NCBI GenBank assembly: GCA_947630375.1
Contig: CANRHH010000001.1
Location: forward strand, 84,052-148,051
From: an uncultured Oscillospiraceae bacterium
Lineage (GTDB): Bacteria; Bacillota; Clostridia; Oscillospirales; Oscillospiraceae
DNA: 64,000 nucleotides
Direction of reading: 5' to 3'
In this document: positions 35,481-51,096 of the stretch, piece after piece
Layout of the letters: every line of letters begins with the position of its first letter
Numbering within the stretch: the stretch's first letter is position 1
The notes under the pieces: generated by a model
The model's database searches: none
What the model was told of the DNA's origin: nothing
What the model saw: the letters and a program-made list of their open reading frames with translations, nothing else
Program-made: the position numbers and the translations under genes

Positions 35481-35507
35481 CTTTACCTCCTATGCCCGGT
35501 GTAACCA

Positions 35508-35536
35508 GGAAATCCGCCGCACTGCGGCGGATTTCC
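35508..35536 (-). other. intercistronic stem-loop between dctP and dctQ
   Basis: GGAAATCCGCC / GGCGGATTTCC arms almost without a loop; no T run follows on the minus strand, so it is more likely an RNA stabiliser that raises dctP over dctQM than a full terminator. Confidence 0.6.
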
Positions 35537-35550
35537 TTTGCCATTTCATT

Positions 35551-36600: not shown

Positions 36601-36656
36601 TTTTCTTTTCCTTTCTTTATTTTCTTAAATTTGAAATGGATCGGGTCCATTTTCTC

Positions 36657-37877
36657 CTATTGAACGATCAACCGGGCTGTAGCCTCCTGAATCGCCTTTT
36701 CTGACAAATCCTGTCCGATTCCCGGCAGATCCGGAACGGTGATCTTCCCATTGACCGGTTCATATAGCTGTGTACCGTACTCCCGACAGGCATCGGCCTG
36801 CTGCAAAAAGAGAAACTCATGAATATAGAAATTCGGTACAGCAGCCTCCAGATGCAAAGCGGCGGCCGTGGCGATGGGGGTGCCTGCCACATGGGCCTGT
36901 ACTTTGGCGTCAAAGATTTGCGCCATGTCACAGATTTTTTTGGCCTCAGACAGACCGCCTGTGTTGCTGATATCAGGCTGTATGACTGAGATGGCATTTG
37001 TTTTCAGCAGCTGGTAAAATTCCCATCTCGTCCGGACCTTTTCACCGGCCGCCAGAGGGATGTTTACCCTCTGTGATAAGGTCCGGTACAGATCCGGATT
37101 AAAGCTGCTGACCGGCTCCTCCAAAAACAATACCCCGTATTTTTCTGCGATCCCCGCCAGCTGCGCGGCAGACGTCAGGTCCGTGATGCAGAGATTTTCC
37201 AAAATCAGATCCACATCCCAGCCGCAGCTGTCACGGATGGCTTCCAGCCGCTCCTCCATTAAATTTTTGACCTCCCGGCCTACCGGGCCCTGGAAGGGCG
37301 CTCTGGGCAGTTTCTTTCCTTCCCGGTCATAGGCAAAGAGATTCAGCTTAATGGAAGAGAAGCCGTCCTCTATGATCTTTTTGCACACATAGGCGTACTC
37401 CGACGCGGCGCCTAATCCTGCGCCTCCTGTCTTTCCGAGGACAAGAGCCGCATCCTTGTACCCGTTTTGCGCCTGGGACAGATAGCAGGGCAGCACAGGA
37501 TTTCTCTTTCCGCCCAGAAGCATATAGACCGGTACATGCAGCGCCTTCCCTTTGATATCCAACAGGGCCGTATCCAGAGCGCTCATGGCAGCATAGGCCA
37601 TGGCGCCCCCTCCGGAGAGATGGCCATACATGCCATTGTGTAAGTCTTCCCAAATGACTTCATTGTCCATAGGGTTTCTCCCGATGATCTGCCGGGACAG
37701 ATCCGCTAACGTGTGGGCCAGGCCGTTTTCGGCCGTCCCCAGCGCAATCCCTGCTTCCCCGCAGCCGTGAATCCCTTCATCCGTATGGACGCGGCACACC
37801 ACTGGCACAAAGGCATAAGGAGCTCCCTTCATGCTTGCGCGCTTCAGGAGCAATATTTCAACACTGCGTATTTTCAT
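36657..37877 (-). CDS. enolase-superfamily dehydratase/racemase (mandelate racemase-like)
   Basis: 406 residues. N-terminal capping domain followed by a TIM barrel. Likely metal ligands: Glu in LILENLC (replacing the usual Asp of DAN), LFLEEPVSS and AAGEKVRT; a late His in QAHVAGTPIATAAALH resembles the general base of galactonate-dehydratase-like members. Such enzymes abstract an alpha proton from a carboxylate, usually to dehydrate a sugar acid to a 2-keto-3-deoxy acid. An HpaI aldolase that could cleave such a product is encoded at 41664. Substrate not identified. Confidence 0.85.
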   Translation of the reverse strand: MKIRSVEILLLKRASMKGAPYAFVPVVCRVHTDEGIHGCGEAGIALGTAENGLAHTLADLSRQIIGRNPMDNEVIWEDLHNGMYGHLSGGGAMAYAAMSALDTALLDIKGKALHVPVYMLLGGKRNPVLPCYLSQAQNGYKDAALVLGKTGGAGLGAASEYAYVCKKIIEDGFSSIKLNLFAYDREGKKLPRAPFQGPVGREVKNLMEERLEAIRDSCGWDVDLILENLCITDLTSAAQLAGIAEKYGVLFLEEPVSSFNPDLYRTLSQRVNIPLAAGEKVRTRWEFYQLLKTNAISVIQPDISNTGGLSEAKKICDMAQIFDAKVQAHVAGTPIATAAALHLEAAVPNFYIHEFLFLQQADACREYGTQLYEPVNGKITVPDLPGIGQDLSEKAIQEATARLIVQ

Positions 37878-37930
37878 CCGGTTTTTCCTTTCCCGACTTT
37901 ACGCCGGAGAGTTTCCTGCCCCGGCATCCG

Positions 37931-38851
37931 TCAGTTCCCGTCGATCCCCAGGAGCCTCCGGGGATTGGCGCCCGTTATCAAGCGCAGATCCTCCTCCGGC
38001 ATTCCTCTCTTCTGCATTTCATCGATGAATGTCAAAATACCGTCGCTGGGGATGGGACGGCCCACCTGCCCCAAGTCAGAGCTGATAATGGTTTTTTCAC
38101 AGCCGTGCTCCTGCAGGAGCTCGTACAGTCGGTCATAGGTCTGTTTGCCGGAATAGAGCGTCGCCAGAATGTGCTCTACATAAAATCCGGCGCGCTGGAA
38201 GTCCCGCATTTCCTGGACGGAATAATCCTTGAAAAACTCTGCGTGGGTGATCACGATCCGCCGGCAGCCCTGTTTTACGGCTTCGTTAAGCAGCGCATGC
38301 GTCTCTTCCCGGGACAGATGGCCTGTAGCCAGCACCGCGTCCGCTTCCGCGATCATCCGGCAGATAGGTCCCAGCTCCGGCAGCAGTTTACCGTCTCCGT
38401 CCAAAACGGACAGCGGCGGATCATACTGCAGGGGCTTGGATACTTTTGGAACGCCGGATCTGTACTCCGGAAAGTGCTCCCGCATATAGGCCATCCGTTC
38501 CCTTCCGTATTTGGCAGAAGAAACCGGCATCCAGATGACTTTTGTTCCGAACCCCAGAGCGACTTCCACCGCGCTGGGATTTATACCGCCCACCGGATTG
38601 CCCAAAACCATACCGCCAAATACATCAAAGCTTTCCCCGCCCAAATAGGTCTGGAGCAGCTTGCACAGATTCCCGGAAGGGAGATGCTGATCCTTGATGA
38701 CGATCGCGCGCATTCCTGCCTCTTTGGCCGCTTTGGCCACCTGAACATGGTCATAGCCCCTGGGAATGAGGCCGGGACCGCTGTGCAGATGCATGTCTAC
38801 CGCGCCCTTGATTAGTTCCTTCGGTTCCGTCGTATAATCACCTTCTCTCAT
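37931..38851 (-). CDS. DUF6282 family metal-dependent hydrolase-like protein (paralogue 1)
   Basis: 306 residues. DMHLHSGPG near residue 20 is a metal-binding motif as in amidohydrolase/TIM-barrel hydrolases; further conserved His/Asp are in LATGHLSREE, VITHAEFF and ISSDLGQ. The C-terminus NPRRLLGIDGN is typical. The family is uncharacterised. A second copy with the same motifs lies at 42941, so the two probably act on related molecules. First gene of the operon with the enolase-like and TRAP genes; it has a LysR-type operator and promoter upstream. The ribosome site is weak. Confidence 0.8.
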   Translation of the reverse strand: MREGDYTTEPKELIKGAVDMHLHSGPGLIPRGYDHVQVAKAAKEAGMRAIVIKDQHLPSGNLCKLLQTYLGGESFDVFGGMVLGNPVGGINPSAVEVALGFGTKVIWMPVSSAKYGRERMAYMREHFPEYRSGVPKVSKPLQYDPPLSVLDGDGKLLPELGPICRMIAEADAVLATGHLSREETHALLNEAVKQGCRRIVITHAEFFKDYSVQEMRDFQRAGFYVEHILATLYSGKQTYDRLYELLQEHGCEKTIISSDLGQVGRPIPSDGILTFIDEMQKRGMPEEDLRLITGANPRRLLGIDGN

Positions 38852-38917
38852 TCATATTGGCTGCTTGGTCTGTCTGTGTCTGAATATTCTCTGTCAAATT
38901 TATGGATCCTGTCAATA

Positions 38918-38946
38918 TGATAACACACCGTTATTAATTGCGTCAA
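38918..38946 (-). promoter_or_regulatory. promoter of the DUF6282-TRAP operon
   Basis: Minus strand TTGACG, 17-base spacer, TTATCA. The -35 box is separated by a single base from the inverted repeat at 38948-38973. Confidence 0.6.
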
Positions 38947-38947
38947 A

Positions 38948-38973
38948 TCGATATTTTTGACGGAAAATATTAA
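38948..38973. promoter_or_regulatory. candidate LysR operator 1
   Basis: TCGATAT, 12 bases, ATATTAA: a 26-bp imperfect inverted repeat with the same arms, spacer length and 1-bp distance to the -35 box as two other sites in this island (46528 and 47515). Confidence 0.65.
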
Positions 38974-38994
38974 AGTTTTGGATAAGCATGCCCC

Positions 38995-40455
38995 TCAGAG
39001 GCGCATACTGCCTGTTTCCACATACCGCTGGTGCCAGGAAAGGGCTTTGGACAGGATATGGGGCGTCTGGCCGCGGGAGACGGTGCAGGCCTCCCGGAAA
39101 TATTCCCGAAGCTGAGGCCGGTAATCCGGATGGGCACAGTTTTCAATGATGCATACCGCCCGCTCCCGGGGGGATTTCCACCGCAAATCCGCCGCGCCGT
39201 ATTCCGTCACGATCACGTCCACGTCATGTTCCGTATGGTCCACGTGGCTGACCATGGGCACGATGCAGGAGATCGCCCCGCCTTTGGCCAGAGAGCCTGT
39301 GGCAAAGATCGTCAGCCCCGCATTGCGGGCAAAGTCCCCGCTGCCGCCGACGCCGTTCATGATCTGGGTCCCCATAATATGGGTGGAATTAACATTCCCG
39401 TAGATATCCACCTCTATGGGGGTGTTCATGGAGATCAGCCGCAGCCGCCGGATGACTTCCGGGTTGTTGGCGATCGCCTGGGGCCGGAGGACAATATGCT
39501 TTTTGTAGAAATCCAGATCGCCGTAAAATTTTTCCCGGGCCTCCGCGGACAGGGAGAGCGCGGTGGTAGACGCCTGGGTGATGATCCCCCGCCGGACCAG
39601 CTCGAACGCGCTGTCCTGCATGACCTCCGTATACATGCGAAGGTCCCTGAACTCCCGGCCCAGGCCGATCAGCACGCTGTTGGCCACGCTGCCTACGCCG
39701 GACTGGATCGGCCGCAGATTTTCCGGCTGCCGCCCTGCCGCGACTTCCCCCTTCAGAAAGCGGAGGATGTTTTCCGAAAGCTGCCAGGACAGCTCGTCCG
39801 GGGCCTTGAAGCTGGGGCAAGGGGCCGGGCTGTCTGTCAAAACGATGGCCGCGATCTTTTCCGGCGGGCAGGGGATGCAGGGGCTGCCGATCCGGTCTCC
39901 CGGCTGGAAAATCGGGATACAGCCGGTCCCCTCCCGATAGATATCATGCATGCCCAGGAACTCTGCGGGCAAACTGTAGTTAAGTTCCAGGATCACGCGC
40001 TTCGCCCTGCGGACAAAACAGTCGGAAGCGCCCACAGAGGCCGCCGGTACAATGCCGTCCTTCGTCACAGCGGCGCACTCCAGCACAGCAAAGTCCAGCT
40101 CTTCCGGCCCTTGGTTGTCCAGCATGCCGGCCAGATGGCTCAAGTGCAAATCGTTGTACGCGATCTCTCCCCGGTTGATGCCGGCGCGCAGACTTTTGCT
40201 GCTCTGATAGGGGGCCCGGTAGGCCATGAGCCCCGCCTCTGCCAGAGCGCCGTCCAGCTCTTCGCCCACGGAGGCTCCTGTCAGCACGCGCATATTTTTC
40301 GCCTGCCCCAGGGCCGCTATCTCCCGGGGGACCTGGCGGGGATATCCTACCAGAGTAAATCCGGAAAATCCCACACGGCAGTTTTCCCCGATCAAGGCGG
40401 CCGCCTGCCGGGCGGTCATCAGCCGGTCTCTCAGTTCATTCGGCAGTCTGTCCAT
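38995..40455 (-). CDS. acetyl-CoA hydrolase/transferase family CoA-transferase (AarC/Cat1 type)
   Basis: 486 residues from the ATG at 40455 (GGTGA about 5 bases upstream); an ATG at 40467 is an alternative. VGSVANSVLIGL, MYTEVMQDSAF with the probable catalytic Glu, DIYGNVNSTHIMGTQIMNG and VSHVDHTEHDVDVIVTEYG align with succinyl-CoA:acetate CoA-transferases. It would move CoA between a carboxylic acid and acetyl-CoA or succinyl-CoA. The longer start overlaps the AspT-like stop, so translation may be coupled. The acid accepted here is unknown. Confidence 0.88.
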   Translation of the reverse strand: MDRLPNELRDRLMTARQAAALIGENCRVGFSGFTLVGYPRQVPREIAALGQAKNMRVLTGASVGEELDGALAEAGLMAYRAPYQSSKSLRAGINRGEIAYNDLHLSHLAGMLDNQGPEELDFAVLECAAVTKDGIVPAASVGASDCFVRRAKRVILELNYSLPAEFLGMHDIYREGTGCIPIFQPGDRIGSPCIPCPPEKIAAIVLTDSPAPCPSFKAPDELSWQLSENILRFLKGEVAAGRQPENLRPIQSGVGSVANSVLIGLGREFRDLRMYTEVMQDSAFELVRRGIITQASTTALSLSAEAREKFYGDLDFYKKHIVLRPQAIANNPEVIRRLRLISMNTPIEVDIYGNVNSTHIMGTQIMNGVGGSGDFARNAGLTIFATGSLAKGGAISCIVPMVSHVDHTEHDVDVIVTEYGAADLRWKSPRERAVCIIENCAHPDYRPQLREYFREACTVSRGQTPHILSKALSWHQRYVETGSMRL

Positions 40456-40460
40456 GGCCG

Positions 40461-41627
40461 TCACCATAAAAGCGCCATGACCTGCGATCCGATGACGACG
40501 CAGATGAGCGCAAACGGATAGGTGGCGGCGTAGGAGGTCGCCACATCCTCTGTCCCGCTGAGACTGATCAAGGCGCCCAGCGCGGGCGTGGAGGTCATCC
40601 CGCCGCAAACGGAGCCCAGCGTGGTCAGCGTATCCAGCCGGAGAAGGAACCGGGACAGCAGGCAGGCCAGGACCATCGGCAGAAGGGTCACCAGCACCCC
40701 CAGGAGGAAGAGCTTTACGCCCTGCTGCATCAGCACTTCCACGAAGCCGGCCCCCGCCTCCGTCCCCGCCCCGATGAGGAACAGGCACAAGCCCAGCTCT
40801 CGCATGGCTTTCAGCGTGGAGGGAAGGGCCCGGAGGGAGAGACGGCCGACACGGCCAAAATGAGCCACGATCAGGCCGGCAAACAGAGGGCCGCCGGAGA
40901 CGCCCAGGGAAAAGCTCATGCCGCCGGGCAGCGGGATGGAGACCGTGCCCAGCAGGATCCCCAGAGCGGTCACCGCAAACAGGGGCAGAAAACCGAAGGG
41001 CTCCAGGCAGATAAGCTTGTCCGCCTCCCCGCCGGCTTTGCCGTCCTCCGGGGCCGGCTCCCCGTGCAGGCTTTCATGAAGGCGCCTTTTCTCCTCCTCC
41101 AGGCAGCAGCCTGTCAGTTTGGGATAGAGCTGTACAAACAGCACCACGCCCACTACGCCAAAGGGATAGGCAATGCCGTACCCCACCGAGGACAGAGAGG
41201 CGGTCTGGATGCCGCGGGCGGCCAGCACGGCCGTCGTAGCCTCTGATGCGGCAGCCAGCCCGGGGGTGGAAGTCAGCGCGCCGGTGAAAATACCGATGGC
41301 CAGGTCAAAATCCACGTTTAATAGCTTCCCGGCCACTACGGTCACCAGTGAGCCCACGACCGCGATAAACACGCCCAGGAACAGAAACGCATAGACCTTT
41401 TTTCGGAAATTCCGAAAAAACACCGGCCCGGCTATCATACCCACAGAGGCCACGAAGACCGCAAGGCCAAAATTTTTCACCACAGCAGGCATTTCCACAC
41501 CGAAATGGCCGAATATCAGGGCCACCAGCAGAACGCCGGAGGTGCCCAGGGACAGCCCCTTTATGGAGATCGATCCCAGCAGGTATCCGACCGAGGCGAT
41601 CAGAAAGACCGCAAGGAGATTGTTCAT
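40461..41627 (-). CDS. AspT/YidE-type antiporter
   Basis: 388 residues with two homologous membrane halves, each with the YidE/YbjL duplication motif (GALTSTPGLAAASEA and GGMTSTPALGALISL). The AspT family exchanges aspartate for alanine or related carboxylates. There is no TrkA-C domain in the middle, only a charged loop (about 180-210). Within this island it may export a carboxylate product or bring in a dicarboxylate alongside the TRAP system. Confidence 0.85.
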   Translation of the reverse strand: MNNLLAVFLIASVGYLLGSISIKGLSLGTSGVLLVALIFGHFGVEMPAVVKNFGLAVFVASVGMIAGPVFFRNFRKKVYAFLFLGVFIAVVGSLVTVVAGKLLNVDFDLAIGIFTGALTSTPGLAAASEATTAVLAARGIQTASLSSVGYGIAYPFGVVGVVLFVQLYPKLTGCCLEEEKRRLHESLHGEPAPEDGKAGGEADKLICLEPFGFLPLFAVTALGILLGTVSIPLPGGMSFSLGVSGGPLFAGLIVAHFGRVGRLSLRALPSTLKAMRELGLCLFLIGAGTEAGAGFVEVLMQQGVKLFLLGVLVTLLPMVLACLLSRFLLRLDTLTTLGSVCGGMTSTPALGALISLSGTEDVATSYAATYPFALICVVIGSQVMALLW

Positions 41628-41663
41628 ATTTTTTGTTTCCCTTCTCTCTTTGCGGACCGGCTC

Positions 41664-42446
41664 TCAGCTCCGATAAGCATCAAACTGGGCCACTGTGGAT
41701 TTGAGGCATTTGGCAAACAAAGCCGCGTCGGAGCTGTAGAGGATATATCGGGCTCCGTTTTGGATATACATTTCCATGTCCGCCGGTCCGGTCACGGCGA
41801 TGCCGCCGGCTTTGCCGTACTTTTCCGCCGTGTGTATCACATGCAGGGCCAGTTCCACCACCTGCGGATCCTTGGACTTGCCGGGGATCCCCAGGGATTG
41901 GCTCAGATCGGCAGGGCCCACAAAAACCACGTCTATCCCCGGGATCCGGCAGATGCTCTCGGCCTCCAGGGCCATATCCCGGTTCTCAATATGCACGGCT
42001 ACCAGGCTTTTTTCATTGGCTGCTTCCACATAGGGTTTTTCAGCCTCATTCCAAAAGCCAAACATGGCGTTGCGGGTACCGCGGGACAGGCCCCGCGTGC
42101 CCAGCGGATAGTACTTGCTGGCGCTGACCGCGTCTTCAAACTGCCGGACCTGGGTCAGATTGGGGATCTGGACCCCTGCCGCTCCGCTGTCCAGCGCGTG
42201 AAAGATGTGCTCCTCGGAAGCGGACGGGACCCTGACGATCGGTGCCAGCCCCACATTTTCGGCTGTGCGGATGATGTTTTCCACGCTCTCATACCCTATG
42301 GGGGAGTGCTCACAGTCGGCTACGATAAAGTCGAACCCCGCCCATCCCAGCATCTCCAGCGCAATGGGAGAATTGAGCTTATAAAAGGTGCCGAAAAGGG
42401 TCTCACCTTCTTGCAGCCGCGCTTTGAGGGATTTTTCAACCGCCAT
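41664..42446 (-). CDS. HpcH/HpaI class II aldolase
   Basis: 260 residues. ADCEHSP with the catalytic His, VRVPS with Arg, HIENRDM with the metal-binding Glu and VFVGPADLSQSLG with the metal-binding Asp give the complete HpaI active site. Such aldolases split 4-hydroxy-2-oxo acids to pyruvate (or a similar 2-oxo acid) and an aldehyde. AAAGGAG lies 5 bases upstream. Downstream of the cupin gene (18-bp gap) in the same operon. Confidence 0.9.
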   Translation of the reverse strand: MAVEKSLKARLQEGETLFGTFYKLNSPIALEMLGWAGFDFIVADCEHSPIGYESVENIIRTAENVGLAPIVRVPSASEEHIFHALDSGAAGVQIPNLTQVRQFEDAVSASKYYPLGTRGLSRGTRNAMFGFWNEAEKPYVEAANEKSLVAVHIENRDMALEAESICRIPGIDVVFVGPADLSQSLGIPGKSKDPQVVELALHVIHTAEKYGKAGGIAVTGPADMEMYIQNGARYILYSSDAALFAKCLKSTVAQFDAYRS

Positions 42447-42464
42447 TTTTTCTCCTTTGATCCT

Positions 42465-42839
42465 TTAACGGACCTCTACGCTCTCCTGCCTGTCTGCGGT
42501 GCGCTTGGGGCAGAAGATATCCATGTTGTAGACCGGCTTGTCATAGGGGTTTTCGATCCAGTGCATCACGCCGCCGGGGATCGTCAGGAAGCAGATGCCG
42601 CCCTCCCGGTCCAGATCCGCGTCAAAGGTATACACCTCGTCGCCTACATGGAAATCACACTTGCCCTTGAGTACCAGCACAGTCTGCTCATAGTCATGCT
42701 TGTGGGGGCCGGGCACGTGGCCGGGCTGTATGACGCCCATGCTGATGGTGTAGTTTTCAGAGCCCTGGTACACTTTTCTTTTTACACTGGGTTTGGGATT
42801 GAACCAATCGCATTTGCCCCAATCGAGATGTTTCGTCAT
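42465..42839 (-). CDS. small cupin-domain protein
   Basis: 124 residues from the ATG at 42839 (AAGGAG 7 bases upstream); the long upstream frame is spurious. A single cupin with PGHVPGPHKHDYEQTVLVLKG split over two motifs: PHKHDYEQ supplies His/His/Glu, and GGVMHWIEN the last His. Small cupins of this type are isomerases, decarboxylases or binding proteins for organic acids. Placed between the aldolase and DUF6282 genes, so probably an enzyme step of the same pathway. Confidence 0.82.
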   Translation of the reverse strand: MTKHLDWGKCDWFNPKPSVKRKVYQGSENYTISMGVIQPGHVPGPHKHDYEQTVLVLKGKCDFHVGDEVYTFDADLDREGGICFLTIPGGVMHWIENPYDKPVYNMDIFCPKRTADRQESVEVR

Positions 42840-42940
42840 TTTGTTTTCTCCTTTTCTTTGTTTTTTATTTTCATTGCAGAGCAATAAAAACCGATGCCCA
42901 AAGCTTTTTTTGATCTCGCCTGTTTCCCGTCCGGATGCTC

Positions 42941-43837
42941 TTACGCGGGTCTCTCTTCCAGTCCCAAAAGCCAGGCGGGATTTCGCCGGAGCATGATATC
43001 CATTTGCTCGTCTGTTGCGCCGCAGTGCTCCTGTACCAGCTGCGCGAATTTGGCCAGGCCCTCTGCCGGGGGCATGTACACCGCCTGCCCCAGGTCGGAG
43101 TCTATGATGATGCGCCGGAAGCCCACCTCCCGGAAGACCTCTTCCACCACGCTGAAATCCAGATGGTGCGCCGCGGGCTCCACCTCGTTGAATACCACCG
43201 CGTTCAGCTCGATCAGCGCTCCCAGATCCGCCCACCGCACCATATCCCGGATGCCGGCGCCGATGTTAAAGAACGGGTGATTGACCAGCAGCTTTTTCAG
43301 CCCCATCTCGGAGGCTTTCCGGATCAGCTTGTCGATCTCTTCCACGCTGCCGTGGCCGGTGCCCAGGACCACCTCCGGGTGATGCTCCGCCAGGTAGGCC
43401 AGCAGCCGCTCTACCTCGGGCAGCAGCTCCCCCTTCTCATCCAGATAGTAAATGGGGTCCTCGGGGATCTTCATTTTGCCGGCCCCCACAAAGCCGGTCT
43501 TGCTGTGCCGCTCTATGTGGTTTCGGGCAGATACCGTGGGCATAAATACGATTTTGGCGCCCATCGCGCAGGCCGCGTCCACCGCGTGCAGATTGATGCC
43601 CCCCACGGCATTGTTCAGGCATATACAGCCATAGGCCGTGCATTTGCCCTCTCCCAGGAATTTAGTGACCATGTCCGTCCCCATCATGGTGGGAAAATAA
43701 TGGTCCTTGGATACAAACGCCCGATAGCCGTACTGTATGCCGTCCAGCAGCATATCCCCGGCGTCTACCCGGCGTTTTGCCACCGAAGGTCCCGCGTGGA
43801 CATGGATATCGATCGCTCCGCTCATGTCATAACTCAT
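42941..43837 (-). CDS. DUF6282 family metal-dependent hydrolase-like protein (paralogue 2)
   Basis: 298 residues from the ATG at 43837 (AAGGAG 6 bases upstream). AIDIHVHAGPS near residue 8, VVLGTGHGS, LLVNHPFF and IIDSDLGQAV match the metal-binding positions of the copy at 37931, with which it shares the overall plan and the NPAWLLGLE end. Probable TIM-barrel hydrolase or lactonase; substrate unknown. It lies in the CoA-transferase/thiolase operon, while the other copy is in the TRAP operon. Confidence 0.8.
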   Translation of the reverse strand: MSYDMSGAIDIHVHAGPSVAKRRVDAGDMLLDGIQYGYRAFVSKDHYFPTMMGTDMVTKFLGEGKCTAYGCICLNNAVGGINLHAVDAACAMGAKIVFMPTVSARNHIERHSKTGFVGAGKMKIPEDPIYYLDEKGELLPEVERLLAYLAEHHPEVVLGTGHGSVEEIDKLIRKASEMGLKKLLVNHPFFNIGAGIRDMVRWADLGALIELNAVVFNEVEPAAHHLDFSVVEEVFREVGFRRIIIDSDLGQAVYMPPAEGLAKFAQLVQEHCGATDEQMDIMLRRNPAWLLGLEERPA

Positions 43838-43900
43838 AGTTTTCTCCTTTCCCATATTGTATAGGTGATATTACTGTTTGTTTATATCATACCGTAATCC

Positions 43901-45100
43901 CTACACAACTTCAAGGATCGCCGCCATCCCCATGCCTCCGGCCACGCAGAGCGTGGCAAGGCCCAGGTTCAGACCTCTCCGGCGCATCTCGTACAGCAGA
44001 GTCACCATGATCCGGCTGCCGGAGGATCCGATGGGGTGTCCCAAAGCGATCGCGCCGCCGTTGACGTTGATGATATCCATCCGATCCTCCAGCCCCATCT
44101 GCCGGATGCAGGCCAGGGATTGGGCGGCAAACGCTTCGTTGAGCTCGATCAGCTCCATGTCTTTCAGCGTCAGGCCCGTCTGCTTCATGACCCGTTCCGT
44201 CGCAAGCACCGGGCCCAAGCCCATCAGGCGGGGATCCACCCCGGCGCTGGCGATCCCCCGGATACGGGCCAGGGGCCGCAGGCCCAGCTCTGCGGCCCGC
44301 TCCCCGCTCATCAGCAGCAGGGCGGAAGAGCCGTCGTTCCGCCCGGAGGCATTACCGGCCGTCACTGTGCCGCCGGGCTTGAAGGCGCTTTTCAGCGCTG
44401 CCAAGGCTTCCAGAGACGTCTCCCGCGGAAATTCATCGGTGTCAAAGATCAAATTTTCTTTTTTCTTCCCCTGCGGCACGGACAGCGGTACGATCTCTTC
44501 CCGGAACTTTCCCCCCGCGATGGCCGCCGCCGCCCTCTGCTGGGACTGCAACGCAAAGACGTCCTGTTCTTCCCGGCTGATGCCGTATTTTTCCGCGATA
44601 TTCTCCGCGGTCATTCCCATATTGAAGCGGCCGTACAGATCCTCCGGCTGAGAACAGAATTGGGCCTCCGTCAGCGAGTCCTTCAGTTCGGTATTCCCCG
44701 CTTTCAGTCCCCAGCGGAGCGTGGAGGCATAATAGGGCGCGTTGGTCATGCTCTCCGCGCCGCCGGCAAGAACGGTCTTATTCTGGCCGACTAAAATAGA
44801 GTTCATACCGCAGCGTACCGCCAGCATCCCCGAGGCGCAGGCGCACATCACGGTGTTGCCCGGCACAGACTCCGGGATACCTGCCCGCAGGGCCGCATAG
44901 CGGGCCAGGTTGGAAAAGTCAGAGCTCTGGCGGCACTGTCCAAAATCCACCTCATCGATCTCTTCCGGGCTTATGCCGGAACGCTCCATAGCGGCGCGCA
45001 TCACCGCCTCCGCCAGATCCGCCGCGGTCAGCGGCTTCAGTGAACCGCCGAATTTGCCCACCGCTGTACGGCAGGCCTGGACGATCACAACATGGTTCAT
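43901..45100 (-). CDS. acetyl-CoA acetyltransferase (thiolase)
   Basis: 399 residues. Nucleophilic Cys in NTVMCACASGMLA (about residue 90), GHPIGSSGSR with the catalytic His, and the second Cys in LCVAGGMGMA are all present. It cleaves acetoacetyl-CoA to two acetyl-CoA, or runs in reverse. GGGAGG lies just before the ATG. It is 17 bp downstream of the CoA-transferase B subunit, so acetoacetate activation and cleavage are encoded together. Confidence 0.93.
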   Translation of the reverse strand: MNHVVIVQACRTAVGKFGGSLKPLTAADLAEAVMRAAMERSGISPEEIDEVDFGQCRQSSDFSNLARYAALRAGIPESVPGNTVMCACASGMLAVRCGMNSILVGQNKTVLAGGAESMTNAPYYASTLRWGLKAGNTELKDSLTEAQFCSQPEDLYGRFNMGMTAENIAEKYGISREEQDVFALQSQQRAAAAIAGGKFREEIVPLSVPQGKKKENLIFDTDEFPRETSLEALAALKSAFKPGGTVTAGNASGRNDGSSALLLMSGERAAELGLRPLARIRGIASAGVDPRLMGLGPVLATERVMKQTGLTLKDMELIELNEAFAAQSLACIRQMGLEDRMDIINVNGGAIALGHPIGSSGSRIMVTLLYEMRRRGLNLGLATLCVAGGMGMAAILEVV

Positions 45101-45117
45101 GCTGCTCCCTCCCTTTC

Positions 45118-45792
45118 CTAAACCAGCATAAGCGGGGTCTCCGCTTCCGCCTCAAATTCAATTTCCGTGATCCGGCGCAGCTCCTCCAGGCTGATCTCCG
45201 GCGCGATGCGCTTGAGATGCAGCTTTCCGTCCCGGAAGGTAAAAACCCCGTATTCCGTCACGACAGAATCCACGGCGCCTTTGGCCGTCAGCGGGAGAGA
45301 GCAGCGCTTTACCAGCTTCAGCCCGTTTTTCCCGGTATGGGTCATAGCGGCCAGCACCTTTCGCGCGCCGCATATCAGGTCCATGGCCCCGCCTACGCCC
45401 AGCTGTTTTCCGCCGGGAATGATCCAGTTGGCGATGCTGGCCTCTTCATCCACTTCAAAGGCCCCCAGCACCGTCATATCCACATGGCCCCCGCGGATCA
45501 TGCCAAAGCTCTCGGCGCTGTCCATATAAGCGCAGCCCCTGGTCTCCAGCACAGGCTGCCGGCCGGCGTTGATCAGGTCCGGATGGGCCTGCCCGGCGGC
45601 GGCCATGGGGCCTACTCCCACCATTCCGTTTTCCGCCATGATATATACCTTCTCCCGGGTCAGATAATTGGCCACCAGCGTGGGGATCCCGACCCCCAGG
45701 TTGATAACGGAGCAGCTCTCGTCCCCGTCGATAAGCGCGGCGGCGTTTTTTGCAATGCGGATCTGTTTTTCTTCCTTTGACAGCTCTCTCAT
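45118..45792 (-). CDS. 3-oxoacid CoA-transferase subunit B
   Basis: 224 residues. NLGVGIPTLVANY and the active-site Glu in AENGMVGVGP are those of the B (AtoA/ScoB) subunit. With the A subunit it transfers CoA to acetoacetate or another 3-oxo acid through a glutamyl-CoA intermediate. AAGGAGG is 8 bases upstream and the start overlaps the A-subunit stop by 4 bp. Confidence 0.92.
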   Translation of the reverse strand: MRELSKEEKQIRIAKNAAALIDGDESCSVINLGVGIPTLVANYLTREKVYIMAENGMVGVGPMAAAGQAHPDLINAGRQPVLETRGCAYMDSAESFGMIRGGHVDMTVLGAFEVDEEASIANWIIPGGKQLGVGGAMDLICGARKVLAAMTHTGKNGLKLVKRCSLPLTAKGAVDSVVTEYGVFTFRDGKLHLKRIAPEISLEELRRITEIEFEAEAETPLMLV

Positions 45793-46445
45793 ATGCCCAG
45801 CCTCCTTACAACTGCGTTGATATAGATATGCGGGGTAACGACCGTATCCGGGTCCAGATCCCCGGCCTCCACGATCTCCTCCACTTCCGCGATGGTATAA
45901 GTCGCCGCCATCGCCATCAGGGGATTGAAATTTCGGGCCGTCTTGCTGTAGCAGAGATTTCCCAGGCTGTCTGCCCGTTTGGCGTGAATAAGCGCTGCAT
46001 CCGCATAGATCGCCCGTTCCAGCACATACTCTCTCCCTTGGAATATACGCCGCTCTTTTCCCTCTCCCAGCTCTGTGCCGGCGGAGGCCGGCGTATAGTA
46101 GGCGGGGATCCCCATCCCTGCGGCGCGGATCGACTCGGCCAGCGTGCCCTGCGGGACCAGCGTCACCTGGATCCTGCCGCAGTTGTAAGCCTCTATCGCC
46201 TCCGGGTTCCAGTTGTAATAACTGCCGATCAAGGCCTTGACCTGATGATTGGTCAGAAGCCTCCCCAGCCCCTGGTTGGGAGAGCCCAGATCATTGGAGA
46301 TGATCGTGAGTTCCTTTTTTCCCGAGGCCACCAGCGCGTCCACCAGGCTGTCCGGACAGCCCCTTAATCCGAAGCCTCCGATCATGATACGGTCCCCGTC
46401 CCGTATCCTGTCCACCGCTTCCTGGGCCGTCATCAATTTATCCAT
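45789..46445 (-). CDS. 3-oxoacid CoA-transferase subunit A
   Basis: 218 residues. RIMIGGFGLRGCPDSLVDAL near the N-terminus and GSPNQGLGRLL are typical of the A (AtoD/ScoA) subunit. First gene of the minus-strand catabolic operon, downstream of a promoter and an operator-like repeat shared with the divergent LysR gene. GGGAG lies 7 bases before the ATG. Confidence 0.92.
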   Translation of the reverse strand: MDKLMTAQEAVDRIRDGDRIMIGGFGLRGCPDSLVDALVASGKKELTIISNDLGSPNQGLGRLLTNHQVKALIGSYYNWNPEAIEAYNCGRIQVTLVPQGTLAESIRAAGMGIPAYYTPASAGTELGEGKERRIFQGREYVLERAIYADAALIHAKRADSLGNLCYSKTARNFNPLMAMAATYTIAEVEEIVEAGDLDPDTVVTPHIYINAVVRRLGI

Positions 46446-46498
46446 AGAAATTCTCCCTTTCTCTGGTAATGTTTCGGTTTGCTGTTGCTATGATTTTA

Positions 46499-46526
46499 TG
46501 ATAACATCCTGTAAATAAGTTGACAA
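46499..46526 (-). promoter_or_regulatory. promoter of the CoA-transferase operon
   Basis: Minus strand TTGTCA, 16-base spacer, TTATCA. One base separates the -35 box from the operator-like repeat at 46528. Confidence 0.55.
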
Positions 46527-46527
46527 A

Positions 46528-46553
46528 CCGATTTTTTTGTGCTTAATTATCGA
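46528..46553. promoter_or_regulatory. candidate LysR operator 2
   Basis: CCGATTT, 12 bases, TTATCGA: a 26-bp imperfect version of the TCGATAT-N12-ATATCGA repeat. It lies between the divergent LysR and CoA-transferase genes, 35 bp before the LysR start, so it could serve both activation of the operon and self-control. Confidence 0.6.
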
Positions 46554-46588
46554 TATAATTATTAATTCAAGAGAAGGGAGACCCGACT

Positions 46589-47500
46589 ATGAATATGGAA
46601 TCTATTGAGAGCTTCATCAGCATCGTGCGCTACCAGACCATTTCCGCCGCGGCCAAAGCTCTCTACGTATCTCAATCGACCATCAGTCACCGCATCCAGG
46701 TCCTGGAACAGGAGCTGGGCGTCACGCTCTTTGACCGGCAGCGAGGGTTTAAAAAGCTGGAACTGACAGATATGGGGCGCAAGTTTTACCCGCTGGCCAT
46801 GCAGTGGCTGGAGCTGCATTCCCGGATGTATGAGATCCATTCCGAAGACATTCTCGGCAAAGTCCGTATCGGCAGCATGGACAGCATCAACCAGTACCTT
46901 CTGCCCCCTATCATCTCCCAGATCCGGGATGAAGTCCCGGAGCTGCAGCTGGAATTTGTCTCTTATCATTCTCAGGAGATCTATTCCCGCATCAATTCCC
47001 AGCTGATCGACGTGGGCTTTGCCTTTTACCCCATCCGTTATGACATCATCGCCACCCCGGTCTTTTCAGAACCCATGGTCATGGTCAGTCCGCCGGGGAG
47101 CATCTATCCGCCGGGGGATATCCACCCCTCCCAGCTGATAAAGCGGGACCAGATCTTTTTTACCTGGGAGAGCAATATCGAACGCTGGAATCACGAATGG
47201 TGGGATGAACACGACCCGCCCTACGTGAAGGTGGACTCCTGCGGCCTGCTCATCACCTTCCTCACCAATCCCCGGCGCTGGGCCGTATGCCCCGTCTCTG
47301 TCGCCACGGCCCTCCGGGCCATGTATAACGTAGAGATCCACCGTTTCCAGACGCCTCCCCCCAACCGCATCTGTTATCTGCTGCGGCGGAAATATCCGCG
47401 CGGTGTAAATCCTCCCGCCGGGATCGACCGGTTCATCGATGTTTTTAACCGGCAGATCGCCAACCACCCCTGGCGGTATAATTGGGAGAAGGAAAGTTAA
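46589..47500 (+). CDS. LysR family transcriptional regulator
   Basis: 303 residues. An N-terminal winged helix (1-60) with SAAAKALYVSQSTISHRIQ and a C-terminal periplasmic-binding-like effector domain. Divergent from the CoA-transferase operon and followed by the flavin reductase gene, a placement typical of a local activator. The 26-bp repeats at three island promoters are the probable binding sites. The inducer is expected to be the substrate or an intermediate of this pathway. Confidence 0.92.
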   Translation: MNMESIESFISIVRYQTISAAAKALYVSQSTISHRIQVLEQELGVTLFDRQRGFKKLELTDMGRKFYPLAMQWLELHSRMYEIHSEDILGKVRIGSMDSINQYLLPPIISQIRDEVPELQLEFVSYHSQEIYSRINSQLIDVGFAFYPIRYDIIATPVFSEPMVMVSPPGSIYPPGDIHPSQLIKRDQIFFTWESNIERWNHEWWDEHDPPYVKVDSCGLLITFLTNPRRWAVCPVSVATALRAMYNVEIHRFQTPPPNRICYLLRRKYPRGVNPPAGIDRFIDVFNRQIANHPWRYNWEKES

Positions 47501-47514
47501 ATTTATTGATTTTC

Positions 47515-47540
47515 TCGATATTTCTTCTCAAATATATCGA
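47515..47540. promoter_or_regulatory. candidate LysR operator 3
   Basis: TCGATAT, 12 bases, ATATCGA: a perfect 7-bp inverted repeat, the best copy of the three. Its right end is 1 bp from the -35 box at 47542. Confidence 0.7.
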
Positions 47541-47541
47541 A

Positions 47542-47570
47542 TTGCATCCGCTTTTTCCCCGTGTTATACT
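47542..47570 (+). promoter_or_regulatory. promoter of the flavin reductase gene
   Basis: TTGCAT, 17-base spacer, TATACT; 48 bases before the start codon. Confidence 0.6.
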
Positions 47571-47618: not shown

Positions 47619-49637
47619 ATGCCTATGCCTGTTCCTGACAGTACCTATGCCCCCCTGTTTACGCCTTTTAAAATCGGCGAGCTGGAAATCCCCAACCGGA
47701 TCATTCTCTGCGCCATGGGGGGAACTGCACCCATAGAGGACCATGCTTTCAACCCCCGCTGCGTCCCCTTTTTCATGAACTGCGCCAAAAGCGGCGTCGG
47801 GCTGATCATTCCCGGCCTCTCCATTCTGACGGACAAGTGGGGCCGCCCGGGGTGGCTGGATGAAGCGGCCGATGTATTTCGCGGCCCGCTGAAGGATTTT
47901 ATGGACCGGCTCCACGGCGAAACCGGCACCAAGTTTATCCTGCAGCTGGGTGCGGGCATGGGCCGGGGATTGAGGGCCAATTTTGGCGTTACGCTGCCTT
48001 ATTTTGATTATCACCGGGCTATGGTGGCCCCCAGCGACGGCATGCCCAACGTGTTCGCTCCGGAGATGAAGCACCGGGCGCTGACCCGGGAGGAGATCCG
48101 CAAGCTGGTGGATGTGATGGTCAACAGCGCGGAGCTGGCCCGGGAGGCCGGCTGCGACGGGGTGGAGATCCACGCCATCCATGAAGGGTATCTGCTGGAC
48201 CAGTTTGCCATGTCCAATTTCAACCACCGCACCGACGAGTACGGCGGCAGTCTGGAAAATCGCCTGCGGATCTCCACCGACATGATCCGGGGCATTAAAG
48301 CGCGCTGCGGGAAAGACTACCCTGTTCTTATGCGCTACAGCGTTGCCAGCAAGACCGCGGGCTTTAACAAGAGCGTTCTTCCCGGCCAGGACTACACGGA
48401 GTTTGGCCGCAGCCTGGAGGAGAGCATCTCGGTGGTCCGGCTCCTGGAGAAGGCCGGCATCGATGCGCTGGATACCGACAACGGCACCTACGACTCCTGG
48501 CACTGGGCCCATCCGCCCACCTATATGCCGGAGGGCTGTAATCTGCCGGAGGCCGCTTATATCAAAAACTTTACCAAGGTACCGGTTTTTGTCTCCGGAA
48601 AGATGGGCGACCCGGACCTGGCCCTGCGGGCCGTTGTCAGCGGCGCGGTGGACGCGGTGGCCATGGCGCGTCCCATGCTGGCCGATCCCCAGTGGGCAGA
48701 AAAGGTCCGTCAGGGGCGGGTCCAGGACATCCGCCCCTGCATTGGGTGCCACAACGGCTGCTTTGGCCGGCTGACACGGGGGCTGAATGTGTCATGCGCT
48801 CTGAACCCCAGCAGCCTCCAGGAGGAAAAGTATGCGCTGAAGCCTGCGCAGACGAAAAAGAAGGTCCTGGTGGCCGGCGGCGGTATAGGCGGTATGGAGG
48901 CCGCCAGACTTTGCGCGCTGCGGGGTCTGGACGTGGCGCTGTATGAGGCCACAGGCCATTTGGGCGGCGCTTTCCGCGCCGCCGCGGCGCCGGATTTTAA
49001 AAAAGACGACAAAAAGCTGCTGGCCTGGTATGCCCGGCAGCTGGATATGCTGGGCATACCCGTCCACCTGAACTGCCCCGTTACGCAGGAATTGGTGGAG
49101 AGAGAAAAGCCCGACCTGGTCATTGCCGCTACGGGAGCCAGCCCGAAGCGGCTCCCCATCCCCGGTATTCACCGGCCGCACGTCTGTGAGGCCAAGGAAT
49201 TTCTGCTGGAGGACCGGGCCCTGGGGAGCCGGGTCGTTGTGATCGGCGGCGGCCTTACCGGCTGTGAGGTGGCCAACGCCATCGCGGAGCAGGGCAAAGA
49301 AGTCTCCCTGGTGGAAATGCAGACCGATATCCTGCAGGTCCCGGATCTGTGCCGGGTCAATTCCAATATGCTGCGGGACATGCTGCGTTTCAACCGGGTA
49401 GCGCTCTACTGCGGCGCGCTGGTGCGGGAGATCGGAGAGGACTGGGTCCTGCTGGAGCAGCAGGGCGCAGAGAAGCGTCTGGCGGCGGACAGTGTCGTTC
49501 TGGCCGCCGGCTATACGCCTCAGCCTTTGGAGCTTTCTCTGTCCGGCATCCCCGTCTACCAGGTGGGTGACTGCGTCGAGGTGAGCAACCTGCTGGGCGC
49601 CGTCTGGGCCGCGAACGACGTAGTTTTAAATCTCTGA
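47619..49637 (+). CDS. 2-enoate-reductase-like flavoprotein (OYE barrel, Fe-S, FAD domains)
   Basis: 672 residues from the ATG at 47619 (AAAGGAG 8 bases upstream). Residues 1-340 form an old-yellow-enzyme barrel with FMN; the HAIHEGYLLDQF motif is present. CIGCHNGCF plus a later Cys (NVSC) binds a 4Fe-4S cluster near residues 372-392. The C-terminal half has two dinucleotide folds, VAGGGIGGMEAAR and VIGGGLTGCEVA. This is the plan of clostridial 2-enoate and 2,4-dienoyl-CoA reductases, which reduce an activated C=C bond with NAD(P)H. Substrate unknown; first gene of the third LysR-linked unit. Confidence 0.9.
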   Translation: MPMPVPDSTYAPLFTPFKIGELEIPNRIILCAMGGTAPIEDHAFNPRCVPFFMNCAKSGVGLIIPGLSILTDKWGRPGWLDEAADVFRGPLKDFMDRLHGETGTKFILQLGAGMGRGLRANFGVTLPYFDYHRAMVAPSDGMPNVFAPEMKHRALTREEIRKLVDVMVNSAELAREAGCDGVEIHAIHEGYLLDQFAMSNFNHRTDEYGGSLENRLRISTDMIRGIKARCGKDYPVLMRYSVASKTAGFNKSVLPGQDYTEFGRSLEESISVVRLLEKAGIDALDTDNGTYDSWHWAHPPTYMPEGCNLPEAAYIKNFTKVPVFVSGKMGDPDLALRAVVSGAVDAVAMARPMLADPQWAEKVRQGRVQDIRPCIGCHNGCFGRLTRGLNVSCALNPSSLQEEKYALKPAQTKKKVLVAGGGIGGMEAARLCALRGLDVALYEATGHLGGAFRAAAAPDFKKDDKKLLAWYARQLDMLGIPVHLNCPVTQELVEREKPDLVIAATGASPKRLPIPGIHRPHVCEAKEFLLEDRALGSRVVVIGGGLTGCEVANAIAEQGKEVSLVEMQTDILQVPDLCRVNSNMLRDMLRFNRVALYCGALVREIGEDWVLLEQQGAEKRLAADSVVLAAGYTPQPLELSLSGIPVYQVGDCVEVSNLLGAVWAANDVVLNL

Positions 49638-49651
49638 CCCTCTTTGCGCAA

Positions 49652-49678
49652 AAAATCCGCCGTGGATACGGCGGATTT
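49652..49678 (+). terminator. weak hairpin after the flavin reductase gene
   Basis: AAATCCGCCG-TGGATA-CGGCGGATTT followed by CGATTTC; the T run is poor, so readthrough into the MATE gene is likely. Confidence 0.4.
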
Positions 49679-49716
49679 CGATTTCATCATTTTATCCATA
49701 AAGGAGGAGAGATCCG

Positions 49717-51096
49717 TTGACGCCGGCAAAAGAAAATGACTTCTCTCGCGGAGAGATCTGGCGCGTCATTATGCGAATGGCCGTCCCCATGATGCTGGCA
49801 GAGCTCGTCAATGTGCTCTACAGCGTGGTGGACCGCATGTATATCGGGCATATGGCCGGGATCGGTGACCTGGCTCTGACCGGGCTGGGCATTACCACGC
49901 CCATCGTCTCCCTGGTGACGGCTTTCGCAAGTCTGTGCGGCACCGGCGGCGGTCCCCTCTGTTCCATATACCGGGGCAAGGGAGACACCGTCCAGGCAGA
50001 AAAGATCATGGGCAACACCCTGACGATGATACTGGGCATCGGTCTGACCCTTACCGTAGGGCTGCTTTTGTTTATGGAGCCGGTCCTCTACGCCTTTGGG
50101 GCCAGTCAGGCCACCTTTCCTTACGCCTATACCTATGGGATGATCTATGTCTGCGGAACCGTGTTCGCTATGATAAGCCTGGGCATGAATTACTTCATCA
50201 ATGCCCAGGGCTTTGCCAAGATCGGCATGTTGACCGTGACCGTGAGCGCGGTCGTCAATATCATACTCGATCCGATCTTTATCTTCGTTTTTAAGATGGG
50301 GATCGCCGGAGCCGCCATTGCTACCGTAATTGCCCAGGGCTGTTCGGCTGTCTGGGTGATGCGTTTTCTGCTGGGGAAACGGTCCCTGCTGAAGCTGCGC
50401 CTGGCAAATATGCGTCTGGAGATAGCCACTGCCGCAAAGATCCTGTCCTTAGGTCTCTCCGGCTTTGTCATGAAGGCCACCACAGGGCTGGTCCAGATCC
50501 TCTACAATGTGCAGCTTCGCCGTTATGGCGGGGACAGCTTCATCGGCAGCATGACGATCGTCAATTCTATCCGGGATGTACTGTTTATGACATTCCACGG
50601 CCTTACAAACGGCTGCCAGCCTGTGATCGGCTATAATTACGGGGCCAAAGCTTATGACCGGGTCCGCGGCGCCATCCGCTTCACCACTCTGGCCTGCGGC
50701 CTGTATGCCTTCGTCTGCTGGGTGATCGTTCTGCTTATTCCCGGCCCCCTCACCAGAATATTCAACGGAGAAGAAGAGCTTTTGCGCATATGCATCCCGG
50801 CCATTCGGATCTTCTTCAGCGGCTTTGTGTTCAAGGCGTGCCAGATGGTGGGACAATGTGTCTTTGTGGCTCTGGGCCGTTCCGGCAAGGCCATCTTCTT
50901 CTCCCTGCTTCGCAAGATCATCATCGTCGTTCCTCTGCTGTATCTGCTGCCGGTCATTCCCGGCCTGGGCGCCTTTGGCGTTTTCTGGTCTGAACCCGCT
51001 GCGGACTTTATATGCAGCATTGCCTGCTACACCACCATGTACTTCACGGTCTACAAGGCTATGGACCGGGAGCACTCGTCCGGGATCCTGTCCTGA
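49717..51096 (+). CDS. MATE family efflux transporter
   Basis: 459 residues from a TTG start with AAGGAGG 9 bases upstream. Twelve membrane helices in two halves; PMMLAELVNVLYSVVDRMYIG and the matching second-half region GLTNGCQPVIGYNYGAK are typical of the MATE/NorM-DinF fold. It would expel a cationic or toxic compound with Na+ or H+. Its position inside the catabolic island suggests export of a toxic substrate or product, but this is inference. Confidence 0.9.
   Translation: MTPAKENDFSRGEIWRVIMRMAVPMMLAELVNVLYSVVDRMYIGHMAGIGDLALTGLGITTPIVSLVTAFASLCGTGGGPLCSIYRGKGDTVQAEKIMGNTLTMILGIGLTLTVGLLLFMEPVLYAFGASQATFPYAYTYGMIYVCGTVFAMISLGMNYFINAQGFAKIGMLTVTVSAVVNIILDPIFIFVFKMGIAGAAIATVIAQGCSAVWVMRFLLGKRSLLKLRLANMRLEIATAAKILSLGLSGFVMKATTGLVQILYNVQLRRYGGDSFIGSMTIVNSIRDVLFMTFHGLTNGCQPVIGYNYGAKAYDRVRGAIRFTTLACGLYAFVCWVIVLLIPGPLTRIFNGEEELLRICIPAIRIFFSGFVFKACQMVGQCVFVALGRSGKAIFFSLLRKIIIVVPLLYLLPVIPGLGAFGVFWSEPAADFICSIACYTTMYFTVYKAMDREHSSGILS

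Follow-up and report, generated by a model that had tools for sequence, protein, structure and literature searches.

A probable LysR regulon with two-dyad operators in a catabolic island of an uncultured Oscillospiraceae bacterium

The window analyzed here, a 64,000-nucleotide stretch of DNA from an uncultured Oscillospiraceae bacterium, carries a catabolic island that is very likely run by the LysR-type protein encoded at 46589, acting through canonical two-dyad operators at each target promoter. The sites, their geometry, their conservation, and their co-occurrence with this LysR gene are read from sequence and genome comparison. The predicted regulon is well supported and appears to be largely of the ordinary LysR type.

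Inverted repeats and promoters at three proposed target operons

An earlier note on this DNA had reported three inverted repeats with 12-bp spacers, each 1 bp from a -35 box, and had argued that such a fixed geometry is hard to obtain by chance. When the sequence was read directly, all three repeats, spacers, and gaps were found in place. The -35 box of the DUF6282-TRAP promoter does lie at 38946-38941, the phrase "46526-like position" in that note being a slip. The repeats, promoters, and operons are as follows.

47515..47540, plus strand: reported palindrome at the OYE promoter, TCGATAT-N12-ATATCGA (read directly)
46528..46553, minus strand: reported palindrome at the CoA-transferase operon promoter, CCGATTT-N12-TTATCGA (read directly)
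38948..38973, minus strand: reported palindrome at the DUF6282-TRAP operon promoter, TCGATAT-N12-ATATTAA (read directly)
47542..47570, plus strand: OYE-MatE-fumarase operon promoter, TTGCAT (47542-47547), N17, TATACT (47565-47570), extended -10 TGT
46498..46526, minus strand: CoA-transferase operon promoter, TTGTCA (46526-46521), N17, TATCAT (46503-46498), extended -10 TGT
38917..38946, minus strand: DUF6282-TRAP operon promoter, TTGACG (38946-38941), N18, TATCAT (38922-38917), extended -10 TGT
38995..46445, minus strand: target operon 1, 3-oxoacid-type CoA-transferase A and B, thiolase, DUF6282, cupin, HpcH/HpaI aldolase, Asp-Al_Ex permease, and succinyl-CoA:acetate-type CoA-transferase
33685..38851, minus strand: target operon 2, DUF6282, MR_MLE dehydratase-like protein, and TRAP DctP-DctQ-DctM
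33661-33624: terminator-like hairpin of target operon 2
47619..52643, plus strand: target operon 3, OYE-type flavin reductase, MatE, and fumarase-type hydratase (two subunits)

The last CoA-transferase of the island shows 69% identity; no paper on DUF6282 was found in the literature collection searched. A mechanical promoter scan, which found 15 promoters versus 9.2 in shuffles, also picked up the CoA-transferase and DUF6282-TRAP promoters and missed the OYE promoter, whose poor -35 box matches the consensus at 3 of 6 letters.

The combination of repeat and promoter is indeed rare by chance. We defined the composite as at most two mismatches to TCGATAW-N12-WTATCGA, followed by any one base and TTG. 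It occurs three times in the window; in 300 whole-window shuffles it averaged 0.003 and never exceeded 1. When the three intergenic regions were shuffled 5,000 times, any composite match appeared in 6 sets and all three in none, while the perfect form of the repeat, present once in the window, was absent from 100 shuffles. The bare palindrome with up to three mismatches was dropped as a genome-wide search tool because it performs at noise level (102 places versus 108 in the reversed control). With up to two mismatches it occurs at 13 places in the whole genome, 10 of them outside the island. One place with a single mismatch (G000:C3:59659) falls within a predicted 362-aa ORF. The two imperfect copies of the repeat are thus convincing only because the promoter combination and the comparative evidence together support them.

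Two probable tandem dyads at each operator

The 26-bp palindrome, taken in the earlier note as the operator unit, is better read as part of two tandem 19-bp LysR dyads, from each of which it takes the inner half-site, because additional half-sites lie 5 bp upstream of it and within its "N12" spacer (0 of 5,000 shuffles for each). The dyad consensus is ATATCRA-N5-TCGATAT, and the two dyads stand 22 bp apart at the three window promoters.

47503..47521, plus strand: dyad 1 of the OYE promoter, RBS-like, center about -65, TTATTGA-N5-TCGATAT
47525..47543, plus strand: dyad 2 of the OYE promoter, ABS-like, center about -43, TTCTCAA-N5-TCGAATT
46547..46565, minus strand: dyad 1 of the CoA-transferase promoter, RBS-like, TTAATAA-N5-TCGATAA
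46525..46543, minus strand: dyad 2 of the CoA-transferase promoter, ABS-like, AGCACAA-N5-TCGGTTT
38967..38985, minus strand: dyad 1 of the DUF6282-TRAP promoter, RBS-like, TTATCCA-N5-TTAATAT
38945..38963, minus strand: dyad 2 of the DUF6282-TRAP promoter, ABS-like, CCGTCAA-N5-TCGATTT

The added half-sites, at -11 and +11, played no part in choosing the sites. Across seven promoters (three in the window and four in a relative, G012, described below), neither position was matched in 5,000 shuffles, and in the five non-orthologous promoters the counts were 0 and 5 of 5,000. The outer half-site of the window CoA-transferase promoter, the weakest of the seven with 3 of 7 letters, was retained in all of these counts, and the +11 half-site matches only 3 to 6 of 7 letters across promoters. 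In all seven promoters, TGN precedes the -10 box, and the center of dyad 1 lies 30 bp ahead of the first -35 base. If the predicted promoters are right, the upstream dyad therefore sits near -65, where the recognition site (RBS) is found in LysR systems (PMC4730206, in excerpt). This 19-bp dyad also shows the LysR-type T-N11-A within an odd dyad of about 15 to 19 bp; the motif is present in 5/7 promoters and fails at the window CoA-transferase and G012 DUF6282 promoters. The second, weaker dyad has half-sites at +11 and +23 (center about -43) and ends on the first two T residues of the -35 box. The positions -65 and -43 are themselves predicted, since the transcription starts are predicted; with dyads there, the arrangement is that of a textbook LysR operator.

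The 47515..47540 palindrome consists of the right half of dyad 1 and a half-site common to dyad 2 and an alternative register near -34, in which the left half at +20 is strong and the right half at +32 falls below background. The third half-site, ATATCGATTT, may be read as the left half of the -34 dyad or the right half of the -43 dyad, because it contains the self-complementary TCGA. A downstream LysR dimer could then slide 9 bp between uninduced and induced registers with one half-site in common, the palindrome being the signature of such a switch and the operator-to-promoter register being common to a wider LysR subfamily; we regard this elaboration as doubtful.

Half-sites of the BenM/CatM and DntR type are ATAC/GTAT, whereas those of the window are ATATCGA and serve several scattered target operons. 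Shared with these systems (RBS, ABS', ABS'') are an RBS near -65, an activation site reaching -35, and a divergent regulator (PMC4730206, in excerpt). In Agrobacterium, OccR binds at occQ a high-affinity inverted repeat at -64 and a second near -33, with an intermediate one sharing a half-site with the second (PMC5002191, in excerpt). The window operator is similar to these repeats (IR1/IR2/IR3) in its -65, -43, and possible -34 elements, but the right half of the -34 dyad is absent and the gene content is unrelated. The GcvA, MetR, OxyR, and IlvY systems resemble the island in their divergent promoters, their two or three tandem inverted repeats, and their negative autoregulation, which for the island is presumed; the divergent promoters overlap in GcvA, MetR, and IlvY (PMC5002191, in excerpt). 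They differ in that the island belongs to a Clostridiales-type host and has other targets.

The LysR gene and its conservation with the sites

The proposed regulator and its own promoter are located as follows.

46589..47500, plus strand: LysR-type regulator, Pfam HTH_1 and LysR_substrate, 75% identical to its G012 orthologue
46520..46548, plus strand: putative lysR promoter, TTGACA-N17-TTAATT, covered by the operator

Both domains that define a LysR-type protein score above the Pfam cut-off (HTH_1, 67.6 bits; LysR_substrate, 73 bits), and a helix-turn-helix family was found in just this one of the 18 island genes scanned with Pfam, in line with the claim that it is the only regulator in the island. 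NCBIfam LysR families were all below cut-off among the 25 of 50 matches listed, and by sequence the nearest proteins of solved structure include CatM and BenM. In both the window (46445/46589) and G012, lysR is divergent from a target operon with a common operator, and the -35 boxes of the two promoters overlap (TTGACAA/TTGTCAA); G012 has TTGACA-N17-TAAATT at the equivalent place. One -35 region appears to serve both lysR and the divergent CoA-transferase operon, and the lysR promoter is likely a further target of the regulon.

The earlier note had proposed looking for the repeat in relatives that carry the same LysR gene. G012 was the only close relative found (LysR 75% identical), and the repeat, neither absent nor displaced, precedes the same operons there at the same 1-bp distance. 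Its island has four sites, each 1 bp from a TTG -35 box, at the three corresponding promoters and at a TctC-TctB-TctA transporter operon, whose -10 box is weak (TTTAAT). DUF6282 is relocated there and another transporter stands in place of TRAP, TRAP genes not being found in the G012 island contig. Alignment shows the sites kept amid diverged flanks at the LysR and OYE regions, less clearly so at DUF6282. Because the signature at three promoters is kept despite this rearrangement, one LysR switch very probably controls the cluster. Of the regulon originally proposed, a single island-local unit with the 46589 protein as its most likely regulator thus stands, given the geometry kept in G012 and the sole helix-turn-helix gene, and the palindrome as operator does not. 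Scans of genome contigs revealed no island copy besides that of G012. Searches at the order, genus, and family levels, two of which scored at most five candidates per genome, gave no other LysR above 38% identity among the candidates listed, and plasmid matches were all below 60% identity. Conservation of the island therefore rests on two genomes, since only one relative carries it.

Built on the three window sites alone, a model matched at E ≤ 10 only its training sites in its own genome and only three of the four island sites in G012; reciprocal position weight matrices ranked all four G012 sites and all three window sites at the top. Across 102 genomes of the genus and under strict filters, a seven-site model gave matches below 1e-3 only in the two island-bearing genomes (the training sites), and its best match elsewhere was 0.04.

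More distant LysR loci were surveyed in 34 upstream regions, excluding L073, whose contig begins at the gene. With an operator-only matrix that omits the -35 columns, the best match preceded a -35-like hexamer by exactly 1 bp in 10/34 loci and was out of register in 24/34; column-permuted control matrices averaged 1.7 with a maximum of 6, and 0/120 reached 10. The 38-bp operator matrix placed more promoters in register than the 26-bp matrix (10/34 versus 6/34). No upstream region held the 26-bp repeat within three mismatches, and three loci (L066, L067, and L068) carry ATATCG(A/G)-N5-TCGATAT without it; the inverted-repeat search here covered perfect 7-bp arms and listed at most six repeats for each region. 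The best 33-bp match fell within 250 bp upstream of LysR in 14/34 loci, a count without a control that carries no weight. None of 35 non-G012 LysR neighborhoods had the CoA-transferase A/B-thiolase set, while individual loci had single related genes, notably an MR_MLE-DctP-DctQ-DctM run (L045; DctM 52%), a fumarase pair (L102; 39 to 41%), and a 32% CoA-transferase (L100).

Alternative readings and proposed mechanism

The palindrome could itself be the operator of a LysR dimer, with the flanking half-sites incidental, as its arms are the best conserved half-sites (means of 6.29 and 5.86 of 7) and show no mismatch at the OYE promoter. This is unlikely, as conservation at fixed offsets extends to the outer and inner half-sites, three distant loci have the dyad without the repeat, and the longer matrix performs better there (10 versus 6 of 34). 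With an even-length symmetry and arms lying 19 bp apart, the palindrome also departs from the family's odd 19-bp CTATA-n9-TATAG dyad (PMC5002191, in excerpt). A regulator encoded elsewhere might bind instead of the 46589 protein, whose binding we infer. G012 offers a candidate in a second LysR (LysR2; 45% identical) that is divergent from DUF6282 with a site between the two, has the recognition-helix motif QSTISHR in common with the 46589-type LysR, and might be the true regulator at that site or share it. We consider this improbable overall: strong sites among the 102 genus genomes occur only in the two with the 46589-type LysR, one lies within the divergent promoter of this gene in both, and their anatomy is of the LysR type.

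UP elements of strong promoters occupy the -60 to -38 stretch, and these sites look alike in position and A/T-rich core, so that no specific protein would be needed. Conserved C/G in the arms, with invariant C15 and C24, speaks strongly against this reading, as does the lack of any other such site in the same genome at E up to 10, though strong promoters must exist elsewhere. Least probable by far is chance resemblance combined with shared ancestry of the promoter regions: the bare pattern with three mismatches is at noise level, but the composite is far above shuffles, the pattern is common to five non-orthologous promoters, and the sites stayed while flanks diverged at the LysR and OYE regions, if less clearly at DUF6282.

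On the preferred two-dyad reading, the 46589 protein would bind a recognition dyad near -65 and a weaker activation dyad near -43. Binding of a pathway compound, the presumed inducer, would lead a tetramer on both dyads to recruit RNA polymerase and activate the operon. Occupied in this way, the divergent site would also have its lysR promoter covered, and lysR would be repressed.

Collectively, these data indicate that two adjacent dyads, and not a single operator, can underlie a striking long palindrome before a LysR target. The formerly uncharacterized catabolic island, with its two DUF6282 proteins, CoA-transferases, thiolase, OYE reductase, fumarase-like hydratase, and transporter, becomes one predicted co-regulated unit, which helps substrate identification. 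The operator model is precise and appears to hold more widely, for a larger branch of LysR proteins within this bacterial family.

Genes and repeat sites of the island

The island (33685-52643) was scanned gene by gene, all 18 genes with Pfam and 10 of these also with NCBIfam, and has the following layout.

33661-33624: terminator-like hairpin of 15 pairs, at the end of the DUF6282-MR_MLE-DctP-DctQ-DctM set
Minus strand: DUF6282, MR_MLE, DctP, DctQ, DctM
From 46445, minus strand: CoA-transferase operon, beginning with CoA-transferase A and B of the 3-oxoacid type
Minus strand, same operon, in order: thiolase, DUF6282, cupin, HpcH/HpaI aldolase, Asp-Al_Ex permease
Minus strand, last gene of this operon: succinyl-CoA:acetate-type CoA-transferase (ScpC model above cut-off)
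46589-47500, plus strand: LysR, followed by OYE-type reductase, MatE and two fumarase-type subunits

By NCBIfam, CoA-transferase A lies above the cut-off and CoA-transferase B just below it. Terminator-like sites overall are not above chance (21 versus 18.3 in shuffles). Judged by its genes, the island may degrade an unsaturated or oxo-dicarboxylic acid to acyl-CoA units. The two DUF6282 proteins (37931-38851 and 42941-43855) are 31% identical to each other, and no mention of the family was found in the literature searched. The earlier note took LysR for the only regulator in the island; among the 18 scanned genes, it alone has a helix-turn-helix family.

That note had also placed three 26-bp repeats of the type TCGATAT-N12-ATATCGA at 38948-38973, 46528-46553 and 47515-47540. 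The sequence confirms these coordinates, the 12-bp spacers and the 1 bp that separates each repeat from its −35 box, and the −35 to −10 spacers are 17, 17 and 18 bp. The perfect repeat has one copy in the 64 kb and appeared in 0 of 100 shuffles. A composite (repeat with at most two mismatches, then N-TTG) occurs at three sites in the window, against a mean of 0.003 and a maximum of 1 in 300 dinucleotide shuffles, which bears out the view that the fixed geometry is hard to obtain by chance; when the three intergenic regions were shuffled 5,000 times, any match arose in 6 sets and all three in none. The bare pattern is noise across the whole genome at three mismatches (102 places versus 108 in a reversed control), and at two or fewer, 10 of its 13 places in the own genome lie outside the island.

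Conservation in a related genome

LysR matches below 1e-25 were found in 20 of 102 genus genomes, including the window's own (G000), and the only close one is in G012 (75% identical). Draws from the order and the family gave matches in 4/394 genomes (at 1e-25) and 16/400 (at 1e-40), own genome counted in each, with no other LysR above 38% identity among the matches listed. The G012 island retains all eight genes of the CoA-transferase operon (67 to 82% identical), LysR, OYE and MatE, the last in reversed orientation. Its counterpart of the second DUF6282 (57%) lies 4.8 kb beyond LysR; no TRAP genes were found in the 48-kb contig, and the other island end carries a TctC-TctB-TctA operon (Pfam) and then a fumarase pair. 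The fumarase-type pair, which belongs to the OYE operon in the window (51133-52643) and stands behind the Tct transporter in G012 (L047:7644-9156), is downstream of a proposed operator in both.

The repeat proposed upstream of these genes recurs four times in G012 (L035, 19 kb), with no more than two mismatches, preceding the CoA-transferase operon, OYE, DUF6282 and TctC, each followed by exactly 1 bp and TTG. Flanks of the sites have diverged between the two genomes at the LysR and OYE regions, less clearly at DUF6282. Upstream of TctC (L035:535-589), the operator has a further, overlapping palindrome (564-589) next to it; ATATCAA stands at both −11 and +11.

In a blind test, a sequence model built from nothing but the three window sites and run over the whole G012 genome at E ≤10 gave three matches, all island sites (2.3e-4, 0.099 and 4.6), and missed the DUF6282 site; in the own genome it returned only its training sites. 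A weight matrix from either genome put every site of the other at the top of its list: 4/4 in the G012 contig (40.7, 30.2, 30.0, 19.7; ranks five to nine again fell on these sites or on the palindrome next to them, before anything unrelated appeared at 11.6) and 3/3 in the window (37.5, 36.6, 35.7, then 22.1 for one reverse reading and 19.9 for the best unrelated place). A seven-site model run over the 102 genomes gave matches below 1e-3 in just two, G000 and G012, on its own training sites; 37 of the 102 had a match at E ≤1, the best outside these two being 0.04, under strict filters by which weak matches can be lost. With a 45-bp model, the seven sites scored 1e-9 to 7e-7 and the next best in ten genomes 0.07. 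Model searches of the own genome brought up no further member, so the regulon looks confined to the island.

G012 has a second LysR (45% identical, 4 kb from the first) at L035:12916-13806 on the minus strand, divergent from DUF6282 with an operator between. The own genome shows no copy of it, the next LysR match listed being 2e-14. LysR2 may be a duplicated regulator that shares or divides the regulon.

Proposed operator anatomy and the divergent promoter

Profiling the half-site ATATCGA position by position across the seven promoters gave peaks at −11, +1, +11 and +20, counting from where the reported repeat starts. Self-complementarity of TCGA and ATAT accounts for the remaining high values, which overlap these four. 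Site selection had used none of the letters under the −11 and +11 peaks. Neither was reached in 5,000 flank or spacer shuffles, taking the best over all offsets, and with the five non-orthologous promoters alone the counts were 0/5,000 (−11) and 5/5,000 (+11). Because these half-sites exceed the shuffle level, the predicted operator has two tandem dyads, which replace the 26-bp palindrome. The first, ATATCRA-N5-TCGATAT, has its centre 30 bp upstream of the −35 box (about −65); a weaker dyad follows 22 bp further on (about −43). T-N11-A is found in five of the seven upstream dyads. At a −34 dyad, the left half (+20) is present and the right half (+32) absent (0 to 2 of 7 matches). In all seven promoters the −10, spaced at 17 or 18 bp, is preceded by TGN, which was not a selection criterion.

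The predicted layout is the recognition-site and activation-site arrangement of LysR-type regulators. Excerpts of the literature put the recognition site near −65 (PMC4730206), give a motif CTATA-n9-TATAG, likewise of 19 bp, and describe for OccR one repeat at −64, one at −33 and a third between them with a shared half-site (PMC5002191).

The plus strand of the window carries TTGACA (46520-46525) and TTAATT (46543-46548) with 17 bp between, and the corresponding place in G012 reads TTGACA-N17-TAAATT. This pair in both genomes implies that the −35 boxes of lysR and the CoA-transferase operon are one heptamer read on both strands. The operator covers the predicted lysR spacer and −10; its occupation would repress lysR and activate the divergent operon.

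The wider LysR branch

We sampled 34 distant LysR loci, 26-38% identical and in unrelated islands. The single best match at a locus counted as in register if a hexamer sharing four or more of the six letters of TTGACA came at exactly +1 behind it. An operator-only matrix (38 columns, −11 to +26, built from the seven sites and leaving out the −35 letters) was in register at 10 loci, and column-permuted controls averaged 1.7 and never exceeded 6 (0/120 reached 10); the 26-bp matrix gave 6 (controls: mean 1.4, maximum 5, 0/120 reached 6). The top four matches (L096, L095, L046, L045) continue with 17 or 18 bp and TATACT, TATGAT or TATAAT. After the fact, we saw ATATCG(A/G)-N5-TCGATAT at L066 and L067/L068, in each case with TTTACA at the same offset as in the island; L067 and L068 have identical upstream regions. 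At 24 of the 34 loci the best match lacked such a −35 register. Because 10 loci exceed the permuted maximum, together with L066 and L067/L068, the operator-to-promoter register appears from sequence to be a trait of the LysR branch; the exact operator letters appear to be the island's own.

Weak operator-like sequences near distant LysR genes (L045:7832-7900, L097:8503-8575, L101:11930-11962, L096:9549-9593) lie 1 bp before TTTACA or TTTACT. At L045 and L097 they precede a neighbour gene convergent with LysR, a candidate target (by eye, aminotransferase-like and creatininase-like). At L044 and L099, AAAATAT-N12-ATATTTT, with the 26-bp spacing and other letters, stands ~40 bp before the LysR gene.

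The LysR regulon of the earlier note thus stands as a set of predicted operators well supported by two genomes, with the palindrome as operator given up and LysR as the proposed binder.
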